The notes beneath the pieces were generated by a model that saw only the letters and a program-made list of their open reading frames with translations, made no database searches and was not told the origin of the DNA. A stretch of 64,000 bases of DNA, from NCBI RefSeq assembly GCF_003217475.1, contig NZ_QJSP01000008.1, positions 1-64,000 of the forward strand. The letters run 5' to 3'. A program made the translations under genes and the position numbers. Shown here one piece after another: positions 21,152-62,294 of this stretch (its first letter is position 1; each line of letters starts with the position of its first letter). Source of the DNA: Williamsia limnetica (GTDB lineage Bacteria; Actinomycetota; Actinomycetes; Mycobacteriales; Mycobacteriaceae).

Positions 21152-21188
21152 AAGAGCGGTACTCTTCTGATAAGAGAGTAACGTTCTC
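21152..21188. promoter_or_regulatory. Tandem 15-bp palindromes upstream of amidohydrolase no. 2
   Basis: Sites AAGAGCGGTACTCTT (21152-21166) and GAGAGTAACGTTCTC (21174-21188) have centres 22 bp apart. Both fit the window-wide GAGAAT/AGAGT inverted-repeat pattern. The second site ends 30 bp before the ATG at 21219, where a repressor would block transcription. Confidence 0.62.
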
Positions 21189-21218
21189 AGTAGCCCTGCC
21201 CCGCTTGAGAGGACCTTC

Positions 21219-22487
21219 ATGAACATTGACGACATGGTCATGGTCAGCATCGACGATCACGTGGTCGAACCGGCCGACATCTTCGAAAAACACTTCCCGA
21301 AAAGTCTCATGGACCAGGCCCCGAAGCTGACGGCCAACCCACGCAACCCCAACGTCCAGGCCTGGCTCTTCCAAGACCAGGTCGTCGGTAGCTCCGGCCT
21401 CAATGCTGTCGTGTCATGGCCCAAGAAGGAGTGGGGCATGGATCCGACGGGCTACGCAGAAATGCGGCCCGGCGTCTACGACATGGGCATGCGCGTGCGC
21501 GACATGGATGCCAACGGCACCCTGGCGGCGACCTTGTTCGCTACCTTTCCCGGCTTCGCAGGCACCCATCTGGCCAGCCTGCCGGACAAGAAACTGTCGC
21601 TCGCGGCGTGCAAGGCCTTCAACGACTGGGTTGTCGGCGAAGTCCCGGAAACCTATCCGGGACGTTTCGTTCCCCTGGGCATCATTCCGTTCTTCGACCA
21701 GGCCGAGTCGGTCAAGGAGATCCATCGGCTCGCCGCGATGGGATGCCGGTCCATCAGCATTCCCGAGACGCCCTACGGCTCAGGCTTCCCCGACTTCAAG
21801 TCCGGCTACTGGGACCCGATGTTCGAGGCCTGCGCCGAACACAACATCGTCCAGAGCCTCCACATCGGTGGCGGCTTCAGCCTGATCAAACGACCCGAGG
21901 GCTTCAACCTCGACGACATGATGGTTCTGACGCCACTGATCTCTACGATCGCCGCCAACGACGTGCTTCTCAGCGGCGTCTTCCAGAAGTTCCCCGACCT
22001 CAAGTTCGCAATGAGCGAAGGCGGAGTCGGCTGGGTGGCGCCGTGGCTCGATCGCGTCGAACGCCACATCGACAACCAGTCCGAGTGGCTGGGCTCGAGC
22101 TTCCTGCCCGCAGGCATGACAGCAACAGACGTGTGGCGCAAGAACTTCTTGGCGTGTTACATCACCGAACCGAGCGGCCTGAGCAATCGCGACAGACTCG
22201 GAATCGACACCATCGCGTGGGAATGCGACTACCCGCACTCCGATTCCACTTGGCCTCGCTCGCCGGAGATGCTGAAGGAAGAACTCGACGCGGCGCAATG
22301 CACCGACGAGGAAATCGACAAGATCACCTTCGCCAACGTCGCCAGGTTCTTCGACTGGGATCCGTTCAAGCACATTGCCCGCGAAGATGCGACGGTCGGC
22401 GCGCTCCGAGCCCGAGCCGGCGACGTAGACACCAAAGAAACCTCCAAGGAGGAATACCGGCGACGGTACGAACTCGCGAACTCTTAA
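21219..22487 (+). CDS. Amidohydrolase-superfamily metal enzyme (Amidohydro_2 type), paralogue 2
   Basis: A 422-residue protein of the same length as paralogue 1 (9217-10485). It has the same N-terminal metal motif SIDDHVVEP (D12, H14, E17), a barrel HIGGG region and ECDYPHSDSTWP near the C-terminus. The C-terminal third is also shared (DPFxxxxREDATVGALRA). Reaction type within the superfamily, hydrolysis or decarboxylation, is not visible. Transcribed alone, between tandem operators and a clear terminator. Confidence 0.87.
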   Translation: MNIDDMVMVSIDDHVVEPADIFEKHFPKSLMDQAPKLTANPRNPNVQAWLFQDQVVGSSGLNAVVSWPKKEWGMDPTGYAEMRPGVYDMGMRVRDMDANGTLAATLFATFPGFAGTHLASLPDKKLSLAACKAFNDWVVGEVPETYPGRFVPLGIIPFFDQAESVKEIHRLAAMGCRSISIPETPYGSGFPDFKSGYWDPMFEACAEHNIVQSLHIGGGFSLIKRPEGFNLDDMMVLTPLISTIAANDVLLSGVFQKFPDLKFAMSEGGVGWVAPWLDRVERHIDNQSEWLGSSFLPAGMTATDVWRKNFLACYITEPSGLSNRDRLGIDTIAWECDYPHSDSTWPRSPEMLKEELDAAQCTDEEIDKITFANVARFFDWDPFKHIAREDATVGALRARAGDVDTKETSKEEYRRRYELANS

Positions 22488-22506
22488 TACCCGGCTCGCA
22501 CAACAG

Positions 22507-22539
22507 AACCCACAGGCGCACCACGCGCCTGTGGGTTTT
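22507..22539 (+). terminator. Rho-independent terminator of amidohydrolase no. 2
   Basis: 13-bp perfect arms (AACCCACAGGCGC and GCGCCTGTGGGTT), a 5-nt loop, and a TTTT run at 22536-22539. It begins 20 bp after the stop codon. The most typical intrinsic terminator in the window. Confidence 0.88.
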
Positions 22540-22582
22540 GTCGTCTCGGGTGGGCGGCAGCGCCCGTTGCGGATGTGAACTT

Positions 22583-22627
22583 CGTTCTATATTGTACGAG
22601 AGTGTGATTCTCGTAACAACGGGATCG
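22583..22627 (+). promoter_or_regulatory. Promoter/operator block A, identical to 28579-28623
   Basis: A 45-bp block identical to one upstream of amidohydrolase no. 3. It contains the inverted repeat ACGAGA-N7-TCTCGT (22596-22614). A plausible promoter is TTGCGG (22567-22572), 17 bp, TATTGT (22590-22595), which would put the operator over the -10 end and the transcription start. It drives the ALDH-SDR-deazaflavin reductase operon. Promoter boxes are inferred by eye. Confidence 0.7.
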
Positions 22628-22677
22628 ATAGTCCATACATCCGGAACTGCGCTCGACTGTCCCGCCTAAGGAGTCCT

Positions 22678-24150: not shown

Positions 24151-24218
24151 GCGGTCGGCAACTGCTGATTTGCACAGACACTGACCGACCTTCGCCATCA
24201 TCACAGGAGAATTCGACA

Positions 24219-25542: not shown

Positions 25543-26277
25543 GTGGTAGACGCTTCCGGCAAGCAAGCGCAGTCGATCTGGGAGTCGCGGGCGCTCGATC
25601 GTTCAGCGGTACGAGCACAGGACAAGACTGCGGCTCGCCAACTGTTGACCGCACGCGAGATCATCGGCGCGGGGAGAAGGCTGTTCGCAGAGTCCAGCAG
25701 CTTCCAGTTCACGATGAAGCAGGTCAGCGTACAGGCCGGCGTCGCCTTGCAGACCGTCTACCGACACTTCGAGACGAAGGATCTGCTCGTGCTGGCGATC
25801 CTCGAAGAGGAGATCCGCTCGTCCGTCGCGAAGATCGAAACCGACGTCGCCAAGATCGCGGACCCGCTGGAGAAAGTTCACTCTGTGATCACGGGGCCGG
25901 CGTCGAGGCAGCGAACGAAGCAACAGAACTTGATGGGCGCAGCGATAGTCCGGGAACACCTGCGCCTGCAGGTCGACCATCCGGCTGACGTGGCATTGGT
26001 GACCGCGCCCTACTTCGTGCTGATGGAAGACATCCTGCGCACCGCCGCCGATGCCGGGGCACTTCAGATCGTCGACCCGAAGCGCGATGCCCAGATCATC
26101 CAACACCTCGTCATGTCCTTCTATCACCAGTTCGCGCTCGGCGTGGTCTCCGGAGATCCTGCCCAGGAGACCGCCTACCTCTGGGAGTTCTGTCGTGCCG
26201 CCCTCGACCGCGGCACCACGGCGGCCGAGGCCGTCCGCCCTCGTCGCCGGTCGGCTTCGAAGAAGCAACCGACCTGA
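25543..26277 (+). CDS. TetR family transcriptional regulator, candidate master repressor of the tandem-palindrome regulon
   Basis: A 244-residue TetR protein with a long N-terminal arm: the HTH lies at about residues 50-90 (TMKQVSVQAGVALQTVYRHFETK), after some 40 polar residues. The tail is basic (RPRRRSASKKQ). It sits in the middle of the 21-34 kb block whose promoters carry GAGAAT-type palindromes, with 83 bp between it and the operon upstream. I see no such palindrome directly before it. Its link to the sites is inferred from position only. Confidence 0.85.
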   Translation: MVDASGKQAQSIWESRALDRSAVRAQDKTAARQLLTAREIIGAGRRLFAESSSFQFTMKQVSVQAGVALQTVYRHFETKDLLVLAILEEEIRSSVAKIETDVAKIADPLEKVHSVITGPASRQRTKQQNLMGAAIVREHLRLQVDHPADVALVTAPYFVLMEDILRTAADAGALQIVDPKRDAQIIQHLVMSFYHQFALGVVSGDPAQETAYLWEFCRAALDRGTTAAEAVRPRRRSASKKQPT

Positions 26278-28008: not shown

Positions 28009-28045
28009 GAGAATTACACTCTCAGTCTGACAGAATCGTACTCTA
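28009..28045. promoter_or_regulatory. Tandem 15-bp palindromes in the ligase/cupin divergent promoter
   Basis: GAGAATTACACTCTC (28009-28023) and CAGAATCGTACTCTA (28031-28045), centres 22 bp apart. The first is the reverse of the block A site apart from one base. They lie midway between divergent starts, where one pair of sites could control both directions. Confidence 0.65.
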
Positions 28046-28542: not shown

Positions 28543-28578
28543 CGATCACTCTCGCCCTTCCATTGCGCATGTGATCGT

Positions 28579-28623
28579 CGTTCTATATTGTACGAGAGTG
28601 TGATTCTCGTAACAACGGGATCG
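28579..28623 (+). promoter_or_regulatory. Promoter/operator block A, second copy
   Basis: Identical over 45 bp to 22583-22627, with the same inverted repeat at 28592-28610 and the same box arrangement: TTGCGC (28563-28568), 17 bp, TATTGT (28586-28591). It drives amidohydrolase no. 3 and the genes after it. Identity of a non-coding block this long beside different genes points to recent duplication or strong constraint. Confidence 0.7.
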
Positions 28624-36231: not shown

Positions 36232-36268
36232 GATAATGATACTTCCGTAAAACGAGAATGCCAATACC
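36232..36268. promoter_or_regulatory. Tandem 15-bp palindromes upstream of the LLM oxidoreductase
   Basis: GATAATGATACTTCC (36232-36246) and GAGAATGCCAATACC (36254-36268), centres 22 bp apart. They fit GAnAATnnnATTnTC with few mismatches. The nearer site ends 24 bp before the LLM start on the minus strand. Confidence 0.62.
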
Positions 36269-36376: not shown

Positions 36377-37030
36377 CTAGGGCAGGTCGACCTTGGCCGC
36401 GAGCCAGCGACCGTCGATCTTCTCCATGGTCATCACCACACGACTGCGGTCGACGCGTGGATCGGGAGTGGCTGTGTTGGTGACGGTTTGGTCGACGAAC
36501 AGCAGTACCTCGACCTTCGATGGGCTCGCCGATTTGATACCCGAATCGATGACCGTTCCCTGGGCGGTGGCTTTGTTGTCGACCAGCAATTGACGAAGCT
36601 GCCCGCTCGACTGGGAATACATGTCCTTGAACTCGCCGGTGGCCCCGCCGAGAACGTCGGCGAAGTTCTGGTCCAAATTGTCCGAGCTGACGCTGGTCAG
36701 GGCAACAGCGTAAGCGCGCGCCGCTTGTTCCGCTTGGTCAGCGGCGTCATCGATGGAGTTCTGCTGCTGCAACTTCCAGCCCATCACCGCAGCACAGACG
36801 ATAGCGGCCACAGCGACGAGGGCCAGGAGCAGCACTGCCCCTCGGCGGGCTCTGGTCCCGGTCCACCAGCGCGTGGAAGGCGGATCCTCGACCACCGTTT
36901 CCTCGACAGGAGCTGCCTCGGTATCCGGTGTCGAGATGTCCCGTTCTTCTCCGACCTCAGGCACGTCGTCGCCCATCAGCGTCCATCGTTCTTCGGGCGT
37001 CACAGTTGCGGTTCCGCTGCTCTTGCTCAC
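36377..37030 (-). CDS. Mce-associated membrane protein (Mas)
   Basis: A 217-residue protein with a GTG start at 37030 after GAGGAG. About 70 cytosolic residues precede one transmembrane segment (GAVLLLALVAVAAIVCAAVM) and a roughly 120-residue outer domain ending VMTMEKIDGRWLAAKVDLP, the pattern of Mas proteins that close mce operons. It probably stabilises the Mce complex. Only one Mas gene is present; many operons have two. 52 bp separate it from mceF. Confidence 0.85.
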   Translation of the reverse strand: MSKSSGTATVTPEERWTLMGDDVPEVGEERDISTPDTEAAPVEETVVEDPPSTRWWTGTRARRGAVLLLALVAVAAIVCAAVMGWKLQQQNSIDDAADQAEQAARAYAVALTSVSSDNLDQNFADVLGGATGEFKDMYSQSSGQLRQLLVDNKATAQGTVIDSGIKSASPSKVEVLLFVDQTVTNTATPDPRVDRSRVVMTMEKIDGRWLAAKVDLP

Positions 37031-37082
37031 TGTTTTCTCCTCTGCGTCGAGCCGGATGGTGACTTTCGATCGAGTTCGATGC

Positions 37083-38363
37083 TCATGGCTGCCCCGGCAG
37101 CACCGGACCGGCGTAGGGCAAGGGGATCGATTCGGGGCCGATCGGCGTCGGGGACGCCTGGGCCAGTGGATCGACACCGGGCGGGGGTCCTGCACTGGTG
37201 TCTCCCGGCGGACGTGGCGCGTTGGCAGCTCCGCGAACGAGGTTCGCAGGATCGTCGTCCTCGCAGTAGGTGTAGAGGTAGGGCTCGGAGAAGTCGGCGA
37301 GCCACCCGGGCCTGCGGGGCAGATCGTAGTTGCACGACTTGCGCGGGTAGATGTTCACCGATGCCCAGATCCCGCCGTCCCGCATGATACTCGCGATGGC
37401 ATCGAGCGTCGATCCGTCGCGATACTGCGGGAAGAAGAACTCTTGCAGGGCAGGAACTCTCAGGTATGTCATCTGGGCAACCGTGGTGAGGTTGCCCAGC
37501 AGCTGCACCATGGTGGGCGAGTTGTCCGCGATCATGGTGTCCATCGCCGCCAGCGTCGCCGGGGTCTGGTCGATGAAGGTGCGGAATCCACCGTCCATGG
37601 AAGCCACTCCATCGAGTGTGCCCGACAGGTTCTGGGAGGTGCGTTGCAGGCCGGGACTCATCTCGCTCAGTGTGCCCAGCACCACCTTGCTGCTGCTGAG
37701 CAAGCTGACTGTTTGCGGCAGCACGGAATCGAGTGTGGAGATGAGGAACGTACCGCCGGTGATGATCGATTCCAGTTTGTCCGGTCCCTCGGGTCCGACG
37801 CCGAGTTCGCGTGTGATGGTCTCGACCTTCTTCGGGTCGATCTGAGCCAGCATCCCGTCGAGATCGCCGAGCAGGTTGGCCAGCGGCACCGGTGTCGAGG
37901 TCTGGTCCGCCGGGACCTCGGAGCCGTCGGTGAGGTAGGGCCCGGTGTCCGCCGTCGGCCGGAAGTCGAGGTATTGCTCACCGGCCGGCGACAAGCCGGC
38001 CACCCGCACCTCACCCGCAGTGGGGATCCGGGTATCGGCGTCGATGGTTGCGACCGCCACCACACCCTCGTCCGAGAGTTCGACGGCTTTCACCTGACCG
38101 ATCGGCACCCCACGCAGGGTGACGTCCTGATTCGGGAGCAGCCCTCCGGACAACGCGAGGTTGACCCGGACGGTCATGGCCTGCGCGGTCGGATTCACCT
38201 GGAAGACGCCGAACACGAGATAGATGAGTCCGAGGACGAAGGTGAGGGCTAGCGCCACGACCGACAGCAGCAGACGATGGTCGATCAATCTGCGGACGAC
38301 GTTCACCAGTCCACGTGCCGGCGACTCCAGCGGCCCGGTTGCATATGCCGACATCTGGGTCAT
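37083..38363 (-). CDS. mceF: Mce family protein MceF
   Basis: A 426-residue Mce protein with one N-terminal membrane anchor (about residues 30-50), then the MCE/MlaD domain (PNQDVTLRGVPIGQVKAVE) and a long helical region. The C-terminus is Pro-rich, as usual in MceF. Six different Mce subunits build the periplasmic lipid/steroid conduit of the importer. The ATG overlaps the mceE stop by 4 nt (ATGA). Confidence 0.92.
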   Translation of the reverse strand: MTQMSAYATGPLESPARGLVNVVRRLIDHRLLLSVVALALTFVLGLIYLVFGVFQVNPTAQAMTVRVNLALSGGLLPNQDVTLRGVPIGQVKAVELSDEGVVAVATIDADTRIPTAGEVRVAGLSPAGEQYLDFRPTADTGPYLTDGSEVPADQTSTPVPLANLLGDLDGMLAQIDPKKVETITRELGVGPEGPDKLESIITGGTFLISTLDSVLPQTVSLLSSSKVVLGTLSEMSPGLQRTSQNLSGTLDGVASMDGGFRTFIDQTPATLAAMDTMIADNSPTMVQLLGNLTTVAQMTYLRVPALQEFFFPQYRDGSTLDAIASIMRDGGIWASVNIYPRKSCNYDLPRRPGWLADFSEPYLYTYCEDDDPANLVRGAANAPRPPGDTSAGPPPGVDPLAQASPTPIGPESIPLPYAGPVLPGQP

Positions 38364-39469
38364 CGGCGTGGTCCCGCGACTTTGGCCCCGAGCCTCTGGA
38401 GTGTGCTCGTGAGGGTCCCGACGAAGTTCGCGCCGTCGGTGCCCAGGTCAGGTATACGACTTCCCGGGTCAGCAGTGTGCGTCGGGTCTGCGATGGCTCC
38501 GATCGCGAAGTCCTCGAGGTCTGCATCGACGTGCGACCCGGATGAGTTGGTGATCTTGATGACCGGGGCCAGCAGCCGATTCACCGCATCCAGGTCGGCA
38601 TTCGGATTCAACGCGGCCGCATTCAATTCCGCGGCGATCGTGTTGATGTCGGCGATCAGTCCACCGGCAGCGGTGCCCGCGATGGACGGGAATTTCGCTA
38701 GTTGGCTGCTCACCGAGGCCAACTGGTTGACGATTCCGAGAATCTGATCGGTGTTGGCCGACAACACACTCATGGCCGGCCCGGCAGCGGCGATTGCATC
38801 TTTGATGGTGCCCTGGCCGGCGGTCAGCGTGGAGACCAGTCGGTTGGTCTCGTTCAGGGTGCTCCTGATCTCGCCCGTTCGGGCGGAGAGTTTGCTGACC
38901 AGACTGGTCGACTGTTCGATCAGGCCGGCCAGTTCACCGCCCTTGTCACCGACCGCCTCACCGAGACCATTGATGACCTTGGTGATGTTGCGGATGACGC
39001 CGCCGTTGACGAGGAGTGACGATGTGGTCAAGACCTCTTCGATCGTCGCCGCGGCCGATGTCTGATCCAGTTCGATGCCGTCGCCACCCACGAGCACCGG
39101 ACCGTCCGGCGCGGCGTCGAGCGGGGGTTGCATGGCGACGAAGATGTCACCGAGCGGTGTCGCGGAACGTAATTCGGCCCGGGTACCGACGGGCAGGGTT
39201 ACATTCTCCGAAATCCTCAAGGTGACGATCGCCGAGTAGTCACGGACGGTCATACCCTCGACCGATCCGACGTCGGCGCCCGCGAGCTTGACCTTGGCCT
39301 GTTTCGGCAGGTTCAGCGCGTTCTCGAAGGTGGCATACACCGTGTAAGAGTCGCTTCCGACATTGCGCTTCGGCAGCGGGACCGATTCGAGCTCTACCGA
39401 GCACGCGGTCGTCGTCATGGCCAGGGCCAGCATCGCGCCGACGGCAGCGGCCGCTGTCCGGCGTGTCAT
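38360..39469 (-). CDS. mceE: Mce family lipoprotein MceE
   Basis: A 369-residue Mce protein. The signal peptide ends with a lipobox, MTTTAC (Cys at about residue 23), which marks the MceE (LprK-type) subunit. The MCE domain follows (PKQAKVKLAGADVGSVEGM), then coiled-coil-prone helices. ATG at 39469 overlaps the mceD stop; earlier in-frame codons lie inside mceD. Confidence 0.92.
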   Translation of the reverse strand: MTRRTAAAAVGAMLALAMTTTACSVELESVPLPKRNVGSDSYTVYATFENALNLPKQAKVKLAGADVGSVEGMTVRDYSAIVTLRISENVTLPVGTRAELRSATPLGDIFVAMQPPLDAAPDGPVLVGGDGIELDQTSAAATIEEVLTTSSLLVNGGVIRNITKVINGLGEAVGDKGGELAGLIEQSTSLVSKLSARTGEIRSTLNETNRLVSTLTAGQGTIKDAIAAAGPAMSVLSANTDQILGIVNQLASVSSQLAKFPSIAGTAAGGLIADINTIAAELNAAALNPNADLDAVNRLLAPVIKITNSSGSHVDADLEDFAIGAIADPTHTADPGSRIPDLGTDGANFVGTLTSTLQRLGAKVAGPRR

Positions 39470-40575
39470 TTCGCCATCCCCGCCATGCCCTCGAGCATGT
39501 CCGTGATCCCGAAGTCCGGACCGAAGTCGGACAGAGTTCCGGTCGCACAGCCGAGTTGACGCAATCCGAGCACGTTGCACACTTCCTTGAGGAGCTGACC
39601 GTCGAAGAACACCTTGTCGAGCTGCGCATGCACCCGCGCCACCCGGTTCTCCTGATCCACTGCAGCGTAGGCATTGTCGAGGAGCAGCGGGGTCACGTCC
39701 AGGAACTCGGCCAGTTCGCGGCGATAGTCCGCCAGGGTCTTGACGAGGATGTCCGAGTCGGTGACCGTGGAGTTGAGGCTGCCCTGGTTGGTACGCAACA
39801 GGTCCTCGGCCTGAAGGAGGATCTCGTTGATCTGGGCGCCGGTATCTCCGGAGCCAAGGTCTTGATCGGCAAGAATCGCACTCAACTGACCGACCGCAGA
39901 ACCGAAGTCGCGGATCTGTCCATCGTTGCGCGCGGCGGCCTCGGTCAGTACGGACAGGTTGTCGACGATCGTCGTGATCGCATCCCTCGTCTCCGCGCCA
40001 CCGTCAGCGCCCAGGCGCAGCGCCTTCGCCAGCTCGCCCAATGCCGCACGCATGTCCTCGCCGTTGCCATCGGTGATCGCCGAGCCGACGTCGAGCAATT
40101 GCGCCACGGGCCCCGCACCCTCACCATCGCCCTCGAGTTCGAGGGCGAGGTCATCGGCCATCGCCAGCAACCGGTCGAACTCGACCGGCGTCTTGGTCCG
40201 GTCCAGCCCGATGAGATCGTTGTTTCTCAGCACCGGCCCACCGGTGTACGCCGGCGACAACTCGATATGCCGGTCGGTGAGGATCGACGTCGAGACAGTG
40301 ACCGCGTCGACACCTGCCGGGATCGTCACGCCGCCATCAATTCTCATCACCACCTCCACGTAGGTGCCCTTCGGAGAGATCGTCTCGACCGCCCCCACCG
40401 GCATCCCGAGCACCGACACCGCGTTCCCCTCGTACAGGCCGACCCCGTTGTCGAACCGCGCAGTCACCCGTATTGCACTCTCCGAGGCGGCTGCGGCACG
40501 AACACTGCCGAAGCAGACTGCGGCGATGAGCACGACCAGGACGGCCACCTTCGCAACTGTCTTGCTCACCCTCAT
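39466..40575 (-). CDS. mceD: Mce family protein MceD
   Basis: A 369-residue Mce protein with an N-terminal hydrophobic segment (VAVLVVLIAAVCFGSVRA) without a lipobox, then an MCE domain (LYEGNAVSVLGMPVGAVETI) and helical tail. ATG at 40575 overlaps the mceC stop (ATGA). Part of the uninterrupted yrbE-mce operon. Confidence 0.92.
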   Translation of the reverse strand: MRVSKTVAKVAVLVVLIAAVCFGSVRAAAASESAIRVTARFDNGVGLYEGNAVSVLGMPVGAVETISPKGTYVEVVMRIDGGVTIPAGVDAVTVSTSILTDRHIELSPAYTGGPVLRNNDLIGLDRTKTPVEFDRLLAMADDLALELEGDGEGAGPVAQLLDVGSAITDGNGEDMRAALGELAKALRLGADGGAETRDAITTIVDNLSVLTEAAARNDGQIRDFGSAVGQLSAILADQDLGSGDTGAQINEILLQAEDLLRTNQGSLNSTVTDSDILVKTLADYRRELAEFLDVTPLLLDNAYAAVDQENRVARVHAQLDKVFFDGQLLKEVCNVLGLRQLGCATGTLSDFGPDFGITDMLEGMAGMAK

Positions 40576-41636
40576 TTGCAGTCCTTCAGATACTCGGGAA
40601 GATTCAGCTGGTTCGCCCGGCCGCTGACGGCACACATCCAGGAGTCGAGGAACGGTCCGGACTGCGCGGAGAAGTCGACCTCGTTCCCGGTACCGCTGGC
40701 GTTGGCGAAGTTTCGGACCGGAACCGGCAAAATCTGCAAAGTGTTCCTCAGCAGGTCGTCGTTTCGTGCCAGACTTGCCAGCATCCCGTTCAGGTTGGTC
40801 AGCAGCGCGTCGATCTGGGCCCGATTGTCGACGACGATCGTCTGCAGCTGATCGACGAGGTTAGTGGTTGCCTGGAACAGTTGGTTGATCACCGCCCGAC
40901 GCGAATTGATCTCCTGCAGCACCTGCGCGCCCTGCGCGATCAGGGAACCCAGGTTGGCCTGTTGCCCCCGCACCACGTCCGTCAGCTGTTTGGTGCTGGT
41001 GAGCAACGTACCGATCTGGGATCGGCGGTCGGCCATGATGGTTGCGAGGCTCTGGACGTTCGTCAGGACCTGGGGTATCACTTCCGGCGTACCCTCGAGC
41101 TGGTCGGACAACGTTGTCATCGTCTCGCCGATGTCCTTGAAGTCCACTTGTTCGAACGTCGTGGTCGCGTTGTTGATCAATTGCTGTAGGTCGTACGGCA
41201 CGCTGGTGTGTGACAGTCCGATCCTGTTGTCCGGCAGCGTGCCTCCTCCGCCCGGCTTGAGGTCCACGTACCGTGAGCCGAGCAGCGTGGTCAGTTGGAT
41301 GGACGCCCTGGTCTCGGTACCGAGACGAACGTCGTCGTTGATCTCGAGCGTGACCACCACGTGATCACCTGCCAGTCGTGTCGCCTTCACCGTGCCCACC
41401 GGCACCCCGGCGACAGTCACCGAGTCGCCCGAGCTGACGCCCGCTGCCTGGGCGAACTCGGCCTGGTAGGACGTTTTACCGATTCCGGCGCCGGCGAACT
41501 GCAACAGCGCGACCAGCAGGAGCGCGATCACCGTGACGGTGATGATCCCAAGCGTCAGGGTGCTGTGCTTTTCGATGGGCCTGCGCGCCACCTGGCCGGC
41601 GCTGGCGGTCATCCGGCGAACGTCTGGGCGTTTCAT
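40572..41636 (-). CDS. mceC: Mce family protein MceC
   Basis: A 354-residue Mce protein. The membrane anchor is at about residues 27-48 (LGIITVTVIALLLVALL), and the MCE domain has SSGDSVTVAGVPVGTVKATR. The ATG at 41636 overlaps the mceB stop and is preferred; a second ATG at 41642 is two codons earlier. The C-terminal region is rich in Asn and Gln helices. Confidence 0.92.
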   Translation of the reverse strand: MKRPDVRRMTASAGQVARRPIEKHSTLTLGIITVTVIALLLVALLQFAGAGIGKTSYQAEFAQAAGVSSGDSVTVAGVPVGTVKATRLAGDHVVVTLEINDDVRLGTETRASIQLTTLLGSRYVDLKPGGGGTLPDNRIGLSHTSVPYDLQQLINNATTTFEQVDFKDIGETMTTLSDQLEGTPEVIPQVLTNVQSLATIMADRRSQIGTLLTSTKQLTDVVRGQQANLGSLIAQGAQVLQEINSRRAVINQLFQATTNLVDQLQTIVVDNRAQIDALLTNLNGMLASLARNDDLLRNTLQILPVPVRNFANASGTGNEVDFSAQSGPFLDSWMCAVSGRANQLNLPEYLKDCK

Positions 41637-43968: not shown

Positions 43969-43971
43969 CGC

Positions 43972-44826
43972 TCAACCACCGAGCCGCGCGCCGGAGCCGA
44001 CGCCCCACAGCGCCATCGTCAGCAGCAGATTCACGACGATCATGGCGGAGATACTCGCGCGCATCGCGCGTCCGGCCGCGGTGCCCACACCTTGCGGTCC
44101 GCCGGATGCGTAGAAGCCGTAGTAGCACTGGATGGTGGAGGTGATGATGACGAACACCACAGCTTTGAGCATCGAGTACAGGACGTCCGTGCTGTTGAGC
44201 ACCAGCCGGAAGTAGTGTTCGTACGTCCCCGCGGACATTCCGCTCGACAGACTCACGACCCCCTGCACCGTCACGTAATTCAGCGTGAGACAGATGAGGT
44301 AGAGCGGGATGATGGCCACGATCGACGCGAGCAGGCGGGTGGTGACGAGGTACGGGATGGGCCGGATCGCCAGTGCCTCCATGGCATCGACCTCTTCGGA
44401 GATCCGCATCGCGCCCAGTTGAGCGGTGAAGCGACAGCCGGCCTGGGCAGCGAACGCGAGTGAGGCCATGATCGGGGCGAGTTCCCGGGTCGCGGCGGTC
44501 GAGGCAACCATGCCGGTTGCCGGCTCGAGGCCGAGCAGGTGCAGAGCCTGGTACCCCTCGATGCCCACCAGGGCGCCCGCTGCGGCCCCGAGCACGATGA
44601 TCACACCGGCGGTACCGCCGCCCACAACGATGGAGCCGTTACCCCAAGTGACGTCAGACAGGATGCGTAAGAACTCTTTTCGGTAGTGCCGCAGGGTCAA
44701 CGGGATCGACACCAGCGCTTTGACCAAGAACGCGACCATGTGACCGAGTCGCATCACCACGGCACCCTGGGATACGACCGCCGCCGCGACCGGCCGAACC
44801 CCGGGTGGGTAGTACTTCGAAGCCAT
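43972..44826 (-). CDS. yrbEB: YrbE/MlaE-family permease B of the Mce importer
   Basis: A 284-residue integral membrane protein of the MlaE family: FAAQAGCRFTAQLGAMRISEE followed by VDAMEALAIRPIPYLVTTR is the signature, with the EEVDAME coupling stretch thought to contact the ATPase. About five hydrophobic segments. Directly adjacent to yrbEA (no gap). The ATPase (MceG/MlaF type) is usually encoded elsewhere and is not in this window. Confidence 0.94.
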   Translation of the reverse strand: MASKYYPPGVRPVAAAVVSQGAVVMRLGHMVAFLVKALVSIPLTLRHYRKEFLRILSDVTWGNGSIVVGGGTAGVIIVLGAAAGALVGIEGYQALHLLGLEPATGMVASTAATRELAPIMASLAFAAQAGCRFTAQLGAMRISEEVDAMEALAIRPIPYLVTTRLLASIVAIIPLYLICLTLNYVTVQGVVSLSSGMSAGTYEHYFRLVLNSTDVLYSMLKAVVFVIITSTIQCYYGFYASGGPQGVGTAAGRAMRASISAMIVVNLLLTMALWGVGSGARLGG

Positions 44827-45750
44827 CTAGAACCCCGTCCGCGGGAACAACAGGACGTAGAGCTGGGTGAAACCGACGTTGACAACCATCAGCAGGATGA
44901 TCGAGGCCACTACGGTGGCGTTGACCGAGTTGGCCACGCCTGCCGGTCCACCGCGGGTGTTCAAACCCTTGTGGCAGGCCACAATCGCCACAATCGCGCC
45001 GAAGACGATCGCCTTGATCATCGTCAGGTAGAAGTCGCCCACCGTCGCAAACGACGCAAACGTGGACACGAAGGTCCCGGGAGTGCCGTTCTGTACGAAG
45101 GTGTTGAACAGGTAGCCGGAGAAGAAGCCGACGAAGCAGACCACCCCCGTCAGCGACACCCCGACAAGGACCGCCGCCGCCAGGCGCGGCACCACCAGCC
45201 GGCGGATCACCGACAGGCCCATGACTTCCATGGCATCGATCTCGTCACGGATCTTCCTCGATCCGAGGTCTGCACACACAGCGGAACCGGCGGCCGAAGC
45301 CATCAGCAAGGCGGCAACCATCGGCGCACCTTGCCTGATCACCGCGAGACCGCTGGCGGCGCCGGCCATCGAGGTGGCACCCACCTGACCGGCCAGCAGC
45401 GCGAACTGAATCGACAGTGTCATGCCGATGGGGACGGCGACGAAGACCGTCGGCATCGCTGAGGCCGAAGCCATGAATGCCGACTGCCGGATGAATTCGA
45501 CGAACGGAAACTTCAGCGTGCAGATGTCGATGATGAGGTACTGGATCGCCCGCAGACCCAGGACTGCTTGCCCACCGACGGTCTCGAGAGCGGCAATCGG
45601 GTGGCGTCGAACGTATCCACGCGACCATTTCTTTATCTCACCTACGGCCGAAACCTTCTGAACCGTTTGCACAGCAGAAGCTTTCGGTTTCGACCGTCGA
45701 TGGCGAATCGGCTCCGGCCGGGCCGGCGCACCGCGTTCGAGGATCGCCAT
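44827..45750 (-). CDS. yrbEA: YrbE/MlaE-family permease A of the Mce importer
   Basis: A 307-residue MlaE-family permease. ATG at 45750 is chosen because GGAGGACC lies just upstream; a longer frame to 45945 has no such site. Signature: SAAGSAVCADLGSRKIRDE followed by IDAMEVMGLSVIRRLVVPR. An unusually long cytosolic N-terminus (about 70 residues, basic) precedes the membrane part. First gene of the mce operon. Confidence 0.94.
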   Translation of the reverse strand: MAILERGAPARPEPIRHRRSKPKASAVQTVQKVSAVGEIKKWSRGYVRRHPIAALETVGGQAVLGLRAIQYLIIDICTLKFPFVEFIRQSAFMASASAMPTVFVAVPIGMTLSIQFALLAGQVGATSMAGAASGLAVIRQGAPMVAALLMASAAGSAVCADLGSRKIRDEIDAMEVMGLSVIRRLVVPRLAAAVLVGVSLTGVVCFVGFFSGYLFNTFVQNGTPGTFVSTFASFATVGDFYLTMIKAIVFGAIVAIVACHKGLNTRGGPAGVANSVNATVVASIILLMVVNVGFTQLYVLLFPRTGF

Positions 45751-45887
45751 TGGTCCTCCAGCTCTGCCCTGTCGGTCGCGGTCGGCTCGGCAGCGGTCGA
45801 CCACAGAGGCGGACCCGGCGCATTGCGTTGACGACTCCAGGGCTGTTGGGCCGTCAAAACCTTGATCTGAGGAGGTACGTCTCGGTC

Positions 45888-45907
45888 GGTGAAACCTGGG
45901 TTTCACC
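45888..45907. promoter_or_regulatory. 20-bp palindrome upstream of the mce operon
   Basis: GGTGAAACC and GGTTTCACC arms of 9 bp around a 2-bp TG centre, 138 bp upstream of yrbEA. With almost no loop it is more likely a protein-binding site than a hairpin. It does not match any of the other palindromes in the window, so the mce operon may answer to a different regulator. Confidence 0.5.
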
Positions 45908-45911
45908 TCGA

Positions 45912-45945
45912 GTGTGGTCGCCGCCCCCTCAGCCGGCGACCACAC
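45912..45945 (-). terminator. Hairpin after the P450-SDR operon
   Basis: 12-bp perfect arms (GTGTGGTCGCCG and CGGCGACCACAC) with a 10-nt loop, 47 bp after the stop of the minus-strand SDR at 45992. It separates that operon from the mce operon. No T-tract. Confidence 0.7.
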
Positions 45946-45991
45946 CGGAGTTCAGTGCAGATGTGTGTCGATGGTCATCGACGCCGCATCG

Positions 45992-46762
45992 TCACAGGTA
46001 CCAGCCTCCGTTGACCCCGATGATCTGACCGGTGATGAAGCCGGCCTTGTCGGAGGCGAGAAATGCTGCGGCTGAAGCCACGTCGTCGGGCGTACCGGTG
46101 CGTCGCACCGGCGTCATGGTCGCCAAGGCATCGAGGTCGGGGACAACGCCCGTCTTGACACCGTTCTGGGCCATCGGGGTGTCGATGATCGACGGTGGGA
46201 TCGTGTTCGCGGTGATGCCCAGCGGCGAGAGCTCGAACGCGAGCGCCTTGGTCAGTGCGATAACGCCGCCCTTCGACGCAACATAATGAGCCCGATTCGG
46301 TGCACCGGATTGCGCGCTGGACGACGAGATGGTGATGATGCGTCCCCATCCCTTCTCGATCATGTCCGGCACCGCCGCCTGGACCGCGTTGAAGGTACCC
46401 GTCAGGTTGACCTCGATGAGACGGTTCCACGCCTCGAGAGTGAGGTCGACGAAGGGAACATCCCCATCGATCCCTGCGCTGGTGACGATCACGTCGATCG
46501 GCCCGAACTCGGTGCGCACCTTTGTCAGCGCGGCATCGACCGCGTCGCGGTCCGTGACGTCCACCTGACCACCAAGCGCGGCATATCCACTGTTACGCAG
46601 CTCCTTTGCAGACTTCTCTGCGAGGTCGCCCTGCTGATCCAGGAGTGCGACACGGTGTCCGGACGCCGCAAGATGCTCCGCTGTGGCCAGGCCGATGCCC
46701 GACGCGCCGCCGGTGATCACCGCCACGCGGTCGGTCGAGCCGTTGTCGGCACCGGCACTCAT
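45992..46762 (-). CDS. SDR family oxidoreductase
   Basis: A 256-residue SDR: ITGGASGIGLA, LLDQQGD, TSAGIDG (Ser for the second Asn of NNAG), SSSSAQSG, YVASKGG. The region after the active site reads TANTIPPSIIDTPM instead of VNSIxPG. ATG overlaps the stop of the upstream P450 gene (4 nt), so it is translationally coupled and probably oxidises the P450 product alcohol to a ketone. Confidence 0.88.
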   Translation of the reverse strand: MSAGADNGSTDRVAVITGGASGIGLATAEHLAASGHRVALLDQQGDLAEKSAKELRNSGYAALGGQVDVTDRDAVDAALTKVRTEFGPIDVIVTSAGIDGDVPFVDLTLEAWNRLIEVNLTGTFNAVQAAVPDMIEKGWGRIITISSSSAQSGAPNRAHYVASKGGVIALTKALAFELSPLGITANTIPPSIIDTPMAQNGVKTGVVPDLDALATMTPVRRTGTPDDVASAAAFLASDKAGFITGQIIGVNGGWYL

Positions 46763-48060
46763 GAGGCATCCTTTTCTGCGTTTTCCGTGATCGGGGTGAA
46801 CTCGAGATGGAGTTCGGTGAGGCCACGCAAGATGTAGGTGGGCTCGAAGCTGAACTTCCGGTCGTCGGCCGGACCGTGCGCGGACTCGGAGATCTTGATG
46901 TCAGCCATCCGGTCGAGGATCCGCTCGAAGGACACGACACCCTCGATACGGGCCAGTGGCCCACCCGGGCACGAATGGATACCGCGACCAAATGCCATGT
47001 GCTCACGCAGATTACTGCGATCGAGATCGAATTCGTGAGGATTCTCGAAATGCGTGGGGTCACGATTGACGGCACCGGCGGCGATCATCACCGTCGTGCC
47101 GGCAGGGATGTCGACCTCACCCAGTGTCGTGTCCTTGACCGCCAGCCGGAAGCCGGCCTTGACCGGCCCTTCGAGCCGGAGCGTCTCTTCGATGAAATTG
47201 TTGAGAAGGCTGCGGTCGTTGCGCAAACGTTGTTGCAGTTCTTGGTCTTCGGCGATGAATCGCAGGCCTGCACTGAGAAGTTTGACGGTGGTCTCCTGCC
47301 CTGCGGCGAAGACGAAGGTCGCAGAGCGTACGACATCGATCACCTCAGGAGTCGTGCCGTCCGCGTACTTTGCCTGCGCCAGTTTCGTCAGCACGTCGTC
47401 TCGTGGATCGCGCCTGCGCTCCTCGATGTAGGTGCTGAACTTCTCGTCCAGCCATTCCAAGGGGTTTCCCACGAGCGTGTCGCCGTCCGTGGCTCCCGGG
47501 CGAGCGCCGGGGCGAGGGACACCCAGTTGGATCCGGAAGGCTTCGTGGTCCTCTTCCGGGACTCCGAGAAGGTCCGCAATAACAAGCAGCGAAAAGGGTT
47601 TCGCGTAGTCCGTCAGGAATTCAGTGCTGCCGCGTTCGATGAATTCGTCGAGCTGGACGTCCGCCAGCTTCCACATGAACTCCTCGTTCTCCTTGAGACG
47701 GCGCGGAGTGAGGAGTTTGTTCAGCAGACCTCTGGCGCGCTGATGCTGCGGCGGATCCATCGTGACCATGTGCTCGTGGAGCGGCATCTTGTCGCGATGC
47801 TCCGCGATCAGCGCGCTGATGTCATCACCCACCGGTGTGAACGGCAGGTCCGGGAACGGGCCGCCTACCGAGATGCATGAGGAAAAGTTCTCGGTGTCCC
47901 GGAACACCGTCATCGCCTCGTCGTGTCCGGTCACCGCCATGACGCCGTGATGGGGTTCGCGGACCACCGGACACTTGGACCTGAGGTGGTCGAAGTACGG
48001 GTTGGGATCGGGGATCAGTGACTGATCGGTGAAGAAGTCAACTGAATCGAAGTCGCTCAA
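46759..48060 (-). CDS. Cytochrome P450 monooxygenase
   Basis: A 433-residue P450 homologous to the one at 4555-5835. The I-helix reads FAAGQETT, ExxR is in EETLR, and the heme loop FGRGIHSC gives Cys364. I choose the TTG at 48060 as start because GGAGGG lies six bases upstream and the protein then begins MSDFDSVDFFTDQ, aligning with the other P450. No ferredoxin gene is adjacent, so it may share the one at 4307. Two palindromes lie upstream. Confidence 0.94.
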   Translation of the reverse strand: MSDFDSVDFFTDQSLIPDPNPYFDHLRSKCPVVREPHHGVMAVTGHDEAMTVFRDTENFSSCISVGGPFPDLPFTPVGDDISALIAEHRDKMPLHEHMVTMDPPQHQRARGLLNKLLTPRRLKENEEFMWKLADVQLDEFIERGSTEFLTDYAKPFSLLVIADLLGVPEEDHEAFRIQLGVPRPGARPGATDGDTLVGNPLEWLDEKFSTYIEERRRDPRDDVLTKLAQAKYADGTTPEVIDVVRSATFVFAAGQETTVKLLSAGLRFIAEDQELQQRLRNDRSLLNNFIEETLRLEGPVKAGFRLAVKDTTLGEVDIPAGTTVMIAAGAVNRDPTHFENPHEFDLDRSNLREHMAFGRGIHSCPGGPLARIEGVVSFERILDRMADIKISESAHGPADDRKFSFEPTYILRGLTELHLEFTPITENAEKDAS

Positions 48061-48246: not shown

Positions 48247-48894
48247 CTACGCTGGGCGATTCGGGAAAGGCATGCCGGTCAGGGCTTCGAGTTCTTCGAC
48301 GCGGGGCTCACCCTCGAGCTTGCGGAGGTACGCCTCGACGAACTCGAAGGTCTCCTTTTGCCCCGTCGTCATGCCGAGCGACTCCTCCATGATCAGCACG
48401 CGGGAGACGCTCGTCATCAGTGTGATGGCCACGACCGCCGACATCTCTTCGGGATCAACTCCGTAGCGCGACAACGCCTCTTCGATCACGCGGGCCGCGT
48501 CGACACGAAATCGTTCGGCATAGCGCCCGATCTCCGCGCGCAACTCTTTCCGGTGGTTCGCCAGGGCGATGAACTCCATGGTGAGCGCGGTGGCGGCGGG
48601 ATCGATGCTGAATCGCCAGAGCGCCCACAGCGGCTGAGAAGCCTGCAGTGCGAGAGCGTGCACCTCGATCCCCTGCTCGGCACGGCGCGCGAACACCGCC
48701 GAGAAGAGTTCATCCATGGTGCGGAAGTAGTAGTGCACCAGTTGAGGCTTGAGACCCGCTGCCTCGGCGACGCGTCGTGAACTCACTGCGGCGTAGCCCT
48801 GCTCGACCATCAACCGTTCTGTGGCGTCCAGCAGCACCGTTCGGTTCTTCGCATCGGGTGCGCCGAGCCTGCGTGGAGAAGCCATACCCGTCAC
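48247..48894 (-). CDS. TetR family transcriptional regulator of the P450-SDR operon
   Basis: A 215-residue TetR protein: HTH at about residues 18-62 (SSRRVAEAAGLKPQLVHYYF), then the ligand domain. Very similar in layout to the TetR at 1214-1804 (both with VEQGYAAVSSRRV/LEEGYAAATSRKV and the same FIALANHRK stretch). Both precede homologous P450 operons, suggesting duplication of a regulator-P450-SDR module. TGCTCAGCA occurs before its own start and GCTNAGC sites before the P450. Confidence 0.9.
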   Translation of the reverse strand: MTGMASPRRLGAPDAKNRTVLLDATERLMVEQGYAAVSSRRVAEAAGLKPQLVHYYFRTMDELFSAVFARRAEQGIEVHALALQASQPLWALWRFSIDPAATALTMEFIALANHRKELRAEIGRYAERFRVDAARVIEEALSRYGVDPEEMSAVVAITLMTSVSRVLIMEESLGMTTGQKETFEFVEAYLRKLEGEPRVEELEALTGMPFPNRPA

Positions 48895-49069: not shown

Positions 49070-49106
49070 GCGAATACGATTTGCTTATAGCGAGAATGCC
49101 AATATC
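49070..49106. promoter_or_regulatory. Tandem 15-bp palindromes before the CMD-like gene
   Basis: GCGAATACGATTTGC (49070-49084, weak) and GAGAATGCCAATATC (49092-49106, strong), centres 22 bp apart. The strong site is the same as that before the LLM gene for 13 of 15 bases. About 70 bp upstream of the ATG at 49178. Confidence 0.58.
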
Positions 49107-52970: not shown

Positions 52971-53007
52971 CGCAACGTGATTATCCTTTTTTGGAAATGG
53001 CATTATC
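52971..53007. promoter_or_regulatory. Tandem 15-bp palindromes in the SDR/MaoC divergent promoter
   Basis: CGCAACGTGATTATC (52971-52985, weak left half) and GGAAATGGCATTATC (52993-53007), centres 22 bp apart. Both right halves read ATTATC. The pair lies between divergent starts at 52843 and 53102. Confidence 0.57.
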
Positions 53008-59414: not shown

Positions 59415-59449
59415 CGATGACGGGTCGAGGTGAGTGGGAGGATCAAGAC

Positions 59450-60634: not shown

Positions 60635-61296
60635 TTCGGGTCCTGATCGTCGACGACCAGGAGATGATCCGGGTCGGTCTGCGCACCATCATCGACGCCC
60701 ATCCCGATCTGACTGTGGTCGGAGATGTCAGCGATGGTCTCCAAGCCCTACAGGCCCTCGAGACACTGGCCGCTGACGTCATCCTCATGGACATCAGGAT
60801 GCCCGGTATAGATGGGGTGGAGACCACCAGACGGATCCGCGCAACGCACCGCGGCGACGATCTCCGCATCGTCGTCCTCACCACCTTCGAGCACGACGAC
60901 AACGTGCTGGCGGCACTGCGGGCCGGCGCAAATGGGTTCCTGAGCAAAGGTGTCGGCCCTGGCGATCTTGCTGCCGGCATCATCGAGGTCGCGGCCGGTG
61001 GCGGCGCTCTCTCCGGGGCCGCCGCCGCAGCGCTCATCGGGCACGTCGCGGGGGACCGTGCGCTTCCCATCGATCCCGTCATGGCCGACCGCTTCACCGC
61101 GCTCACCCCGCGCGAGCGCGAGGTGGTGGCGGCCATCGCGGGCGGGCTGGACAACAAAAAGATCGCCGAGCGGATGTTCCTGTCGCCGTTCACGGTCAAG
61201 ACCCATGCCAATCGGGCGATGACCAAGGTCGGAGCGCGGGACCGGGCCCAACTGGTCACGTTCGCCTATCGCGCCGGGGTCTCGCCCACTGCATGA
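60631..61296 (+). CDS. LuxR/NarL-family response regulator
   Basis: A 221-residue response regulator. The receiver domain has VLIVDDQEMIRVGLR and the phospho-acceptor Asp54 in LMDIRMPG; the Thr in VVLTTFEHDD and Lys in FLSKGVGP complete the site. The C-terminal LuxR HTH is LTPREREVVAAIAGGLDNKK. ATG overlaps the kinase stop (ATGA). Target genes unknown, the MMPL operon being the obvious candidate. Confidence 0.95.
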   Translation: MIRVLIVDDQEMIRVGLRTIIDAHPDLTVVGDVSDGLQALQALETLAADVILMDIRMPGIDGVETTRRIRATHRGDDLRIVVLTTFEHDDNVLAALRAGANGFLSKGVGPGDLAAGIIEVAAGGGALSGAAAAALIGHVAGDRALPIDPVMADRFTALTPREREVVAAIAGGLDNKKIAERMFLSPFTVKTHANRAMTKVGARDRAQLVTFAYRAGVSPTA

Positions 61297-61365
61297 CCGG
61301 AACCGCGCGGCAGGCGCACGTTCAACAATGCCCATGCCTACCGGCTCGTGGTCACGCAGTAGTCG

Positions 61366-62229
61366 TCACTGACCGCTCGGGGATCGAGAGAAGTCGACTT
61401 GAACCGCGGCGTTGCTCAGCGCCGTCACGACACTGGTGCCGTACGGCCCCCTGTCGTCATACAGGGTCGCCGTGCCCACCGAGATGCCGTCGGCAGTGAT
61501 GTGACTATCGGCCTCGACCCCGAGGAGCAAACCCTCCGGCAATCGGGAGATCGCCATCGTGACATCGCAGTTGATGTAGCCGATGCCCGCTGTTCCGAGG
61601 TTGGTCACCAGGCTGGCGGACTCGGCGGACTGAACGGCGTGGACGAAAGGCGAGGCCGGTTCACCTGGTACCACAGGCAAACTCGCGCCCCATGCGCGTT
61701 TCCGGTCTGCGTTCTGGTGCTCGGCGATACTTTGAGTCCACCCGGTCCGGTCCGTGTTCAGCCAGGGATGCGTTGATTCGTTGTCGGTCGGCATCCGCTC
61801 CGGAGGGTAGAAGTCCGCGGCCGGAACCCATTCGGCACCCGGCGGAGCACTCGACTTCCTCAGGTACACCACGGTGGCCCGGGCCACCGCCACATCATGC
61901 TGCGTCACCTCCACGTCAGCAAGAACGATCCGGCGACCGGCGCGCAGCTGCCGAGTTCGAAACACGGTGGGCAGGTTCTTGGCCGCCTTGTAGAGATCAA
62001 TGGTGAATCTCGCCGGTACGAAGTCCGGGCCACCGAACTCGAGTTCGAGGGCGCGTGCAGCGGCGCCGCAGATGGCCGGCCCGTTCAGCGTTTCCGAGCT
62101 CCAGGCGCTCGTCGCCCACTCGGTCGGGATCAGTTCTGCGGGATCGGCGCAGGTGGTGAAGAAGCTCAGCGATTCGGTCACCGCTGAGATGGTGCCACCG
62201 AGCGCGGCCGTGACCACCACGTTCTTCAT
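61366..62229 (-). CDS. Thioesterase-family protein (acyl-CoA thioesterase-like)
   Basis: A 287-residue protein with two hotdog-like halves: LNGPAICGAAARALELEFGG and VPARFTIDLYKAAK in the first, CDVTMAISRLPEGLLLGVEAD in the second. The pattern is that of actinobacterial acyl-CoA thioesterase-like proteins, which hydrolyse acyl-CoA to acid and CoA. ATG at 62229, or GTG at 62247; no strong ribosome-binding site favours either. Divergent from the DUF35 gene, with tandem palindromes between. Confidence 0.78.
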   Translation of the reverse strand: MKNVVVTAALGGTISAVTESLSFFTTCADPAELIPTEWATSAWSSETLNGPAICGAAARALELEFGGPDFVPARFTIDLYKAAKNLPTVFRTRQLRAGRRIVLADVEVTQHDVAVARATVVYLRKSSAPPGAEWVPAADFYPPERMPTDNESTHPWLNTDRTGWTQSIAEHQNADRKRAWGASLPVVPGEPASPFVHAVQSAESASLVTNLGTAGIGYINCDVTMAISRLPEGLLLGVEADSHITADGISVGTATLYDDRGPYGTSVVTALSNAAVQVDFSRSPSGQ

Positions 62230-62257
62230 AAGTGTGGGAATCAGCACTTCTCAAAAC

Positions 62258-62294
62258 GAGTATGGCAATATTCGTAGACGAGAATGCAATTTCC
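62258..62294. promoter_or_regulatory. Tandem 15-bp palindromes in the thioesterase/DUF35 divergent promoter
   Basis: GAGTATGGCAATATT (62258-62272) and GAGAATGCAATTTCC (62280-62294), centres 22 bp apart. Both carry the GAGnAT left half. They sit between divergent genes at 62229 and 62368. Confidence 0.62.

Follow-up and report, generated by a model that had tools for sequence, protein, structure and literature searches.

Which protein controls a set of catabolic genes whose promoters share a recurrent pair of short palindromes, and how far does that set extend? The question is raised by a 64,000-nucleotide stretch of Williamsia limnetica DNA (hereafter the window), in which a preliminary description noted six promoter regions, each carrying two 15-mers built on GAGAAT-N3-ATTCTC.

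Paired palindromes in the window

Direct reading of the window confirms the observation. All six pairs are found where they were described, with a start-to-start spacing of 22 (Table 1), and several single sites are indeed weak by their match to the 12 fixed letters of the 15-mer, as had been remarked for some of the second sites. The claim that the spacing is always 22 holds for these six pairs and not in general, since spacings of 21 and 23 are also frequent. Two additional pairs with a spacing of 23 are present in the window, and the promoter of one of them (28571/28594) is identical over 46 bp to the 22598 promoter.

Table 1. Features of the window. Matches, fixed letters matched by site 1 and site 2 (of 12); rank, place of the pair among spacing-22 positions of C8:1-224000 by the out-of-genus matrix.
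Feature	Position	Strand	Spacing	Matches	Rank	Context
Paired operator (putative)	21152..21188	.	22	7, 10	10	upstream of Amidohydro_2 gene 21219-22487(+)
Paired operator (putative)	22575..22612	.	23			starts 22575/22598; absent from preliminary description; downstream: aldehyde dehydrogenase 22678, SDR 24219, F420H2-quinone-reductase-like 25004, TetR 25543
Paired operator (putative)	28009..28045	.	22	11, 9	1	between AMP-binding ligase 26306-27901(-) and ORF 28117-28542(+)
Paired operator (putative)	28571..28608	.	23			starts 28571/28594; absent from preliminary description; downstream: Amidohydro_2 28711, CoA-transferase III 29951, SBP 31479, thiolase 32951, ChsH2/DUF35-like 34114
Paired operator (putative)	36232..36268	.	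22	8, 9	7	23 bp upstream of F420-dependent LLM oxidoreductase 35252-36208(-)
Paired operator (putative)	49070..49106	.	22	9, 10	5	between TetR 48247-48885(-) and PcaC-like carboxymuconolactone decarboxylase 49178-49570(+)
Paired operator (putative)	52971..53007	.	22	7, 9	14	weakest of six; between mycofactocin-coupled SDR 52031-52843(-) and MaoC-like (FAS1_DH_region) 53102-53599(+)
Paired operator (putative)	62258..62294	.	22	8, 10	9	between acyl-CoA thioesterase 61366-62229(-) and ChsH2/DUF35-like 62368-62793(+), then thiolase 62810-63955(+)
TetR	25543..26277	+				named in preliminary description; more likely a possible regulon member
TetR	48247..48885	-				adjoins paired operator; rival candidate regulator
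mce-type lipid importer genes	36377..48060	-				with SDR and P450

Scored by the consensus alone, the window contains 26 matches with at most three mismatches against 14.5 expected, a moderate enrichment reached in none of 100 shuffles, and only at stricter sums does no other spacing do better than 22. A single-site matrix trained out of sample, on 30 non-Williamsia sites and 19 of their partners, ranks the six pairs 1, 5, 7, 9, 10 and 14 among the spacing-22 positions of C8:1-224000. With this matrix the number of spacing-22 pairs in the window that score at least as high as the weakest of the six is itself exactly six, against none in 100 dinucleotide shuffles. At the loose matrix sums of 8 and 10, the window has 9 and 8 pairs with spacing 16, exceeding the 7 and 6 with spacing 22; at a sum of 14, spacing 22 has six pairs and spacing 23 five, and the mean of the non-22 spacings is 0.58. 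All six pairs are intergenic, and the intergenic share of C8:1-224000 is 8.1%. The pairs thus withstood a matrix scan that took in both spacing and coding context, which the preliminary description had proposed as a possible refutation, and its suggestion that the operators lie about two helical turns apart is supported. A search of the window for known RNA elements gave 0 Rfam matches at the gathering threshold.

Extent of the probable regulon

The sites extend past the window, to about C8:161 kb, and on the best reading the regulon comprises about 20 promoters between 21 and 161 kb on C8. The earlier picture of a single regulon with paired operators is supported, with a set about three times larger than the six promoters originally listed. 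Non-coding DNA accounts for 27 of the 31 single-site matches on C8:1-224000. With at most one mismatch the motif is found at 15 places in the W. limnetica genome, 10 of them within C8 22-154 kb, and the reversed control is found at 1. Strong sites at 73508, 120788 and 129355 are without a good partner.

In the importer block, with the stretches 36377-37030 and 42664-43968 left out, five MlaD/Mce and two MlaE proteins were identified. The 186 bp before the P450 gene of the block contain no site; the block may be read from the 49070/49092 promoter, since it lies on the same strand as the TetR gene at 48247. Gene 49178 reaches the PcaC model just above its cut-off, a hint of aromatic ring breakdown, and the small ORF at 28117-28542(+) has no Pfam match. 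The most widely kept island core reaches no NCBIfam equivalog cut-off: for ten of its proteins, seven encoded in the 120826-126470 operon plus three more, no NCBIfam match up to 1e-25 passes the cut-off. Plasmid-borne orthologs from which annotation might be borrowed gave no match at 1e-15.

Conservation and co-occurrence with a TetR-family protein

Motif, pairing and promoter position are conserved in related genomes, those of soil bacteria as well as mycobacteria, a comparison on which the preliminary description had also staked its claim, and the motif co-occurs with P0001, a TetR-family protein encoded outside the window at C8:132628-133284. Across the 201 genomes of the family profile, with P0001 called at E<=1e-50, at least two perfect palindromes are present in 38 of the 45 genomes with P0001 and in 0 of the 156 without it, a contrast for which a Fisher value overstates independence because the genomes are related by descent. 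Palindromes total 219 in the P0001 genomes against 12 in the others, with 1 in the reversed control; the 12 belong to 12 different genomes, and of three inspected one is coding and two lie between genes. Among the eight P0001-bearing genomes of genus g22, more P0001 copies are accompanied by more palindromes.

The position of the pair is equally regular at the P0001 gene itself. Of 383 loci that encode a P0001 relative, the best 80 (62 of them mycobacterial) were compared, and in all 80 a site matching at least 10 of the 12 letters lies within 330 bp upstream of P0001; the count holds for these selected loci and should not be taken as the true rate. A search 15-40 bp downstream of the site places its best partner at exactly +22 in 77. 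Sites with at least 11 of 12 letters number 240 in these 80 loci and 0 in the reversed control. Genus-balanced conservation of the pair is 0.95 for site 1, 0.49 for the spacer and 0.82 for site 2; the second site is weaker yet conserved, and slightly different, GAAAGTnAnAnTCTC. Dereplication by shared 9-mers reduces the 286 strong sites in the fetched regions to 42. At distance 22, 23 of these have a partner matching 7/12 or better, whereas 300 shuffles of their flanks give on average 0.78 partners at 22 and never more than 7 at any distance. The median distance from site to nearest start, as predicted by a purpose-written gene caller, is 39 bp over 41 of these 42 sites, those with a start within 400 bp.

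G125 has P0001 without a perfect palindrome, with two strong imperfect sites beside it, one having a partner at 22. Two other Williamsia genomes, G001 and G002, keep P0001 with a nearly unchanged recognition region, but no site scoring at least 12 is present in the 13-14 kb fetched around it; each genome carries a single perfect palindrome, located on a different contig, and G002 has a weak pair with spacing 21 just behind the P0001 gene. Motif regions in G029 (C9), G003 (C4) and G036 (C1, 5.63 Mb) contain no copy of P0001, so the targets are not always linked to it.

P0001 is 218 aa long, with a single TetR_N domain (PF00440; 33.1 bits, cut-off 24, residues 34-79) and no Pfam family in its C-terminal part. 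The best matches in a PDB sequence search are TetR-type regulators (best E 9e-8). Mean pairwise identity among 27 orthologs is 95% over residues 9-84 and 73% over residues 85-218, and such a nearly frozen N-terminal segment is expected of a regulator with many sites. Judged by sequence and distribution, P0001, rather than the TetR protein encoded at 25543, is the likely regulator of the motif-bearing promoters, and one TetR-type protein probably controls the catabolic programme across the island.

Alternative explanations

The binder might instead be another island regulator, above all the TetR protein encoded at 48247-48885, with P0001 a mere passenger and target. The gene adjoins the 49070/49092 pair and is found in 10 of 61 genomes, with a profile similar to that of P0001; the palindrome is present in eight of the nine genomes whose ortholog is 50% or more identical, the ortholog lies within 3 kb of P0001 in G001 and G002, and in G036 two strong sites lie less than 4 kb from it, though none directly upstream. 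We nevertheless regard this explanation as unlikely. The palindrome is missing from G040 despite its 51% ortholog, the surroundings of the ortholog fetched in G001, G002, G034 and G040 contain no site scoring 12, and G026 has four palindromes with a relative of only 38%; nor do the best 80 of the 383 P0001 loci, all of which have sites upstream of P0001, contain a homolog at 55% or more.

Marginally less probable still is that the second element is the site of a different protein, or a part of the core promoter held at constant distance. Its frequent weakness and slight difference, as in the sequence before the P0001 gene, would suit such a role, as would the strong sites that have no second element. 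In the C8 pairs, however, the weaker of the two sites also looks like the palindrome, and it may come either first or second, which would not be the case for a one-sided promoter element.

The TetR protein encoded at 25543, put forward as regulator in the preliminary description, lies behind the site-bearing 22575/22598 promoter and near 28009. It is found (E<=1e-20) in only five of 61 genomes, three of which, W. limnetica included, have it at 73% identity or more, and the motif is frequent where it is absent (G026, G036) or represented by a 33-37% relative only (G029, G034). This assignment appears very improbable, P0001 being the better candidate; given its place behind the 22575/22598 promoter, TetR 25543 may itself be a target. 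That a loose consensus produced the pairs by chance, as the modest window excess with the 12-letter consensus and the frequency of spacing 16 at loose matrix sums might suggest, can be dismissed almost entirely, because the out-of-genus matrix finds none in 100 shuffles and the pairs are conserved across genera.

Relation to known regulators

The KstR and KstR2 regulators of cholesterol catabolism in related bacteria belong to the TetR family and act through palindromic operators before CoA-linked catabolic genes and an mce importer. The putative P0001 regulon resembles them in its TetR-type regulator, palindromic operators, CoA-linked genes and mce importer, but the KstR motif differs, as the preliminary description had maintained: the KstR consensus is matched nowhere in the window (0 matches, against 0.19 from chance alone), and the only KstR above the NCBIfam cut-off is encoded at C11:115330, away from the regulon. 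A KstR regulon was rejected on these grounds, and P0001 has no match to the KstR model NF033703 up to 1e-5. KstR2 chains in the PDB match P0001 at E 0.08 only, and no KstR2-named model, which the NCBIfam library may itself lack, is among the matches there.

QacR places two dimers on one operator, and a control region shared by two dimers of a TetR protein is also what we envisage for P0001. QacR is reported to bind a 28-bp palindrome as a tetramer (PMC4482099). The QacR dimers share a single palindrome, whereas the present sites are two separate palindromes 22 bp apart. The mycobacterial Mce3R, which is TetR-like, represses lipid genes as well as an mce operon and has two binding sites in its operator, and is similar in these respects (PMC11667970). 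It is, however, a double-TetR polypeptide acting on two 25-bp asymmetric sites 53 bp apart (PMC11667970), while P0001 has a single TetR_N in its 218 aa and its presumed sites are palindromic and 22 bp apart. KstR3 of Mycolicibacterium neoaurum, likewise TetR-type, is a proposed negative regulator of sterol side-chain genes including a DUF35 gene, and its deletion significantly altered seven genes (PMC10398937); the likeness to P0001 is one of description. The motifs given for lithocholate genes are different ones (PMC7593942). Among the literature matches listed, no paper dealt with the motif or its regulator in its title or the start of its abstract, and six written forms of the motif had no match either, a weak absence given that logos in figures (as in the TetR table of PMC4482099) are unsearchable.

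Proposed mechanism and significance

We consider it probable that the paired palindromes are tandem operators of P0001, which would repress cooperatively and be released by a pathway intermediate; binding, the cooperativity of two dimers, repression, ligand and substrate are what we infer from the sequences. One P0001 dimer would occupy each 15-bp palindrome, and dimers with centres 22 bp (21-23) apart would lie on the same face of the DNA, a strong site helping to fill a weak one. Bound P0001 most likely represses, since the predicted start codons mostly follow the sites at a distance of some tens of bases, and it would also control its own gene, whose promoter pair lies at C8:132467-132503. 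A pathway intermediate, perhaps the CoA thioester or free acid of a hydrophobic cyclic substrate, would release P0001, and about 20 C8 promoters would then be on together, providing oxygenases, CoA ligases, acyl-CoA dehydrogenases, thiolases and transporters.

The regulon is best read as new, but of a known kind. We lean somewhat towards a fuller proposal, an undescribed regulon shared by Mycobacterium, Nocardia, Rhodococcus, Aldersonia and Williamsia. In it a single TetR protein, its DNA-binding half nearly frozen, would govern about 20 promoters across a catabolic island of 140 kb, using tandem operators two helical turns apart; the weak second site, protected in evolution, would set cooperativity, and the hydrophobic substrate would be one that these bacteria are not so far known to use. 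A testable master regulator and a likely binding code are thereby named for a large set of breakdown genes. A compound that switches on these promoters would offer a direct route to the substrate, and the weak second site, conserved at a constant distance of 22 bp, would provide a clean natural test of the cooperation of TetR dimers on DNA.

Paired palindromes on the contig

All six promoter pairs of 15-bp palindromes built on GAGAAT-N3-ATTCTC were recovered where the preliminary description had placed them, each with a start-to-start spacing of 22 bp. The claim that this spacing is universal holds for these six pairs and fails for two promoters that had been overlooked in the window. A 46-bp core around GAGAGTGTGATTCTC is identical between the latter (22582-22627 and 28578-28623), and is a duplicated regulatory segment preceding an aldehyde dehydrogenase and an amidohydrolase.

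Positions of paired promoters, candidate regulators and the widely kept operon on contig C8
Feature	Position	Spacing (bp)	Remark
Paired promoter	21152/21174	22	
Overlooked paired promoter	22575/22598	23	
Paired promoter	28009/28031	22	
Overlooked paired promoter	28571/28594	23	
Paired promoter	36232/36254	22	
Paired promoter	49070/49092	22	
Paired promoter	52971/52993	22	
Paired promoter	62258/62280	22	
TetR 25543	25543-26277 (+)		
TetR 48247	48247-48885 (-)		
Widely kept operon	120826-126470		CMD-like, Rieske oxygenase, 108-aa protein, Amidohydro_1, SnoaL-like, two acyl-CoA dehydrogenases
P0001	132628-133284		TetR family, outside the window

The 12-letter consensus with up to three mismatches matches the window 26 times against 14.5 expected, and with this plain consensus a spacing of 22 is prominent at stricter sums only. 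The GAGARTNNNRTTCTC pattern occurs at 11 distinct places in the 6.35 Mb genome, 9 of them on C8 at 21-137 kb, and its reversed control at none; the strict palindrome with at most one mismatch occurs at 15 places (10 on C8 at 22-154 kb), against 1 for the control. Two strong intergenic sites lie off C8, at C1:510728 and C7:280429; three C8 genes have relatives, 50-57% identical, in the C7 region, which contains another TetR as well. The KstR gene is located elsewhere, on C11, where no palindrome with at most one mismatch was found.

A single-site matrix was built from 30 dereplicated sites of non-Williamsia genomes and 19 of their 22-bp partners. When all spacing-22 positions of C8:1-224000 are scored with this matrix, the six pairs take ranks 1, 5, 7, 9, 10 and 14; exactly six window pairs score at least as high as the weakest of the six, and 100 dinucleotide shuffles yielded none that did. 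With the summed score set at 14, 6 window pairs have spacing 22 and 5 have spacing 23, the mean for spacings 15-60 except 22 being 0.58. When the sum is relaxed to 8 and 10, spacing 16 yields 9 and 8 window pairs against 7 and 6 at spacing 22, an excess perhaps arising from self-overlap of the motif. The sites also favour non-coding DNA, which harbours 27 of the 31 single-site matches on C8:1-224000, a stretch that is 8.1% intergenic. The fetched regions, among them regions of the Williamsia genome itself, gave 286 strong sites, of which dereplication left 42; the partners of these 42 (at least 7 of the 12 fixed letters) lie at distance 22 in 23 cases, 21 in 11 and 23 in 2; shuffled flanks (300 runs) gave 0.78 at 22 and a maximum of 7 at any distance.

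A candidate regulator

The paired palindromes are probably tandem operators of P0001, a putative repressor of the catabolic island. P0001 matches Pfam TetR_N above the cut-off and falls below every NCBIfam equivalog cut-off. Nine motif regions were fetched from five relatives (three from G029, two each from G003 and G036, one each from G034 and G004), and in one region of each genome a P0001 ortholog, 75-99% identical, adjoins strong sites; G029 C6 carries a further relative at 52% identity. A perfect palindrome is present in 9/9 genomes with P0001 and 2/52 without it among 61 genomes (E<=1e-20), and a palindrome in 44/45 against 12/156 among 201 genomes of the family (E<=1e-50), where two or more occur in 38/45 against 0/156; the contrast is large, but its significance is inflated by kinship of the genomes.

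Binding by TetR 48247 instead appears unlikely. Its genome profile is nearly as good as that of P0001, and in G036 two strong sites lie less than 4 kb from the ortholog of TetR 48247. Three of the nine motif regions (G029 C9, G003 C4 and G036 C1 at 5.63 Mb) have no copy of P0001. These regions and the G036 sites together slightly raise the standing of TetR 48247 and slightly lower our confidence in P0001. However, G040, from another family of the same order, has a 51% ortholog and lacks the palindrome, G026 has motifs with a relative at only 38%, no strong sites occur in stretches around the orthologs in G001, G002, G034 and G040, and a close homolog is absent from the best 80 of 383 P0001 loci. 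TetR 25543, named by the preliminary description, is set aside for its poor genome profile (5/61 genomes).

In G001 and G002, P0001 is 75-83% identical with hardly altered DNA-binding residues, and no site scoring at least 12 was found in the 13-14 kb fetched around it. A single perfect palindrome occurs in each of the two, on a different contig from P0001, and G002 has a weak pair, 21 bp apart, directly behind the P0001 gene. A 48247-type TetR lies less than 3 kb from P0001 in both, with no strong sites around. These loci are possibly remnants after island loss.

Conservation of the P0001 promoter

The best 80 of 383 stretches with P0001 relatives in genome_contigs, 62 of the 80 being mycobacterial, come from Mycobacterium, Mycolicibacterium, Nocardia, Rhodococcus, Aldersonia and Williamsia. 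Conservation of the pairs in related genomes is evident here: every one of the 80 has, no more than 330 bp upstream of P0001, a site matching at least 10/12 letters. Its commonest distance from the matched start is 137 bp (48/80), and the best downstream partner falls at exactly +22 in 77/80. With genera equally weighted, the mean majority frequency reaches 0.95 in site 1 and 0.82 in site 2, compared with 0.49 in the 7-bp spacer and 0.44 and 0.50 outside. Selection therefore appears to act on the second site, weak as it is, and on its register. In Mycobacterium lepraemurium (L116, upstream of 10001) the second site is apparently damaged by a deletion and the first palindrome is intact.

Function and mechanism

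Window genes in the candidate regulon encode amidohydrolases, aldehyde dehydrogenases, an AMP-binding ligase, an F420-dependent LLM oxidoreductase, a PcaC-like protein, a mycofactocin-coupled SDR, a MaoC-like protein, an acyl-CoA thioesterase, DUF35 and a thiolase. In the operon at 120826-126470, beyond the window, all but one of the seven genes are matched by homologs (55% or more) in 58-70 of the best 80 of 383 P0001 loci; for the exception, the CMD-like gene, the figure is 21. No NCBIfam model matched names the pathway of the island genes; judging by the enzymes, the substrate may be a hydrophobic cyclic compound degraded as CoA esters. The stretch 36377-48060 contains mce-type importer genes, a P450 and an SDR, with no strong site preceding the P450 gene.

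Most characterised TetR proteins are promoter-blocking repressors released by a ligand. Sites lie mostly tens of bases from predicted starts (median 39 bp, 41 sites), which fits such a mode of action: P0001 on the paired sites would block the promoter, and a ligand would free it. The 21-23 bp register is about two turns of DNA; two dimers might thus sit on one DNA face, an arrangement that would account for this register and for weak second sites having survived. No paper on the motif or the regulator appeared among the literature matches listed, and six written forms of the motif matched no paper, figure logos being unsearchable. We class the system as a probable TetR catabolic regulon, distinguished by an unusually regular tandem operator.
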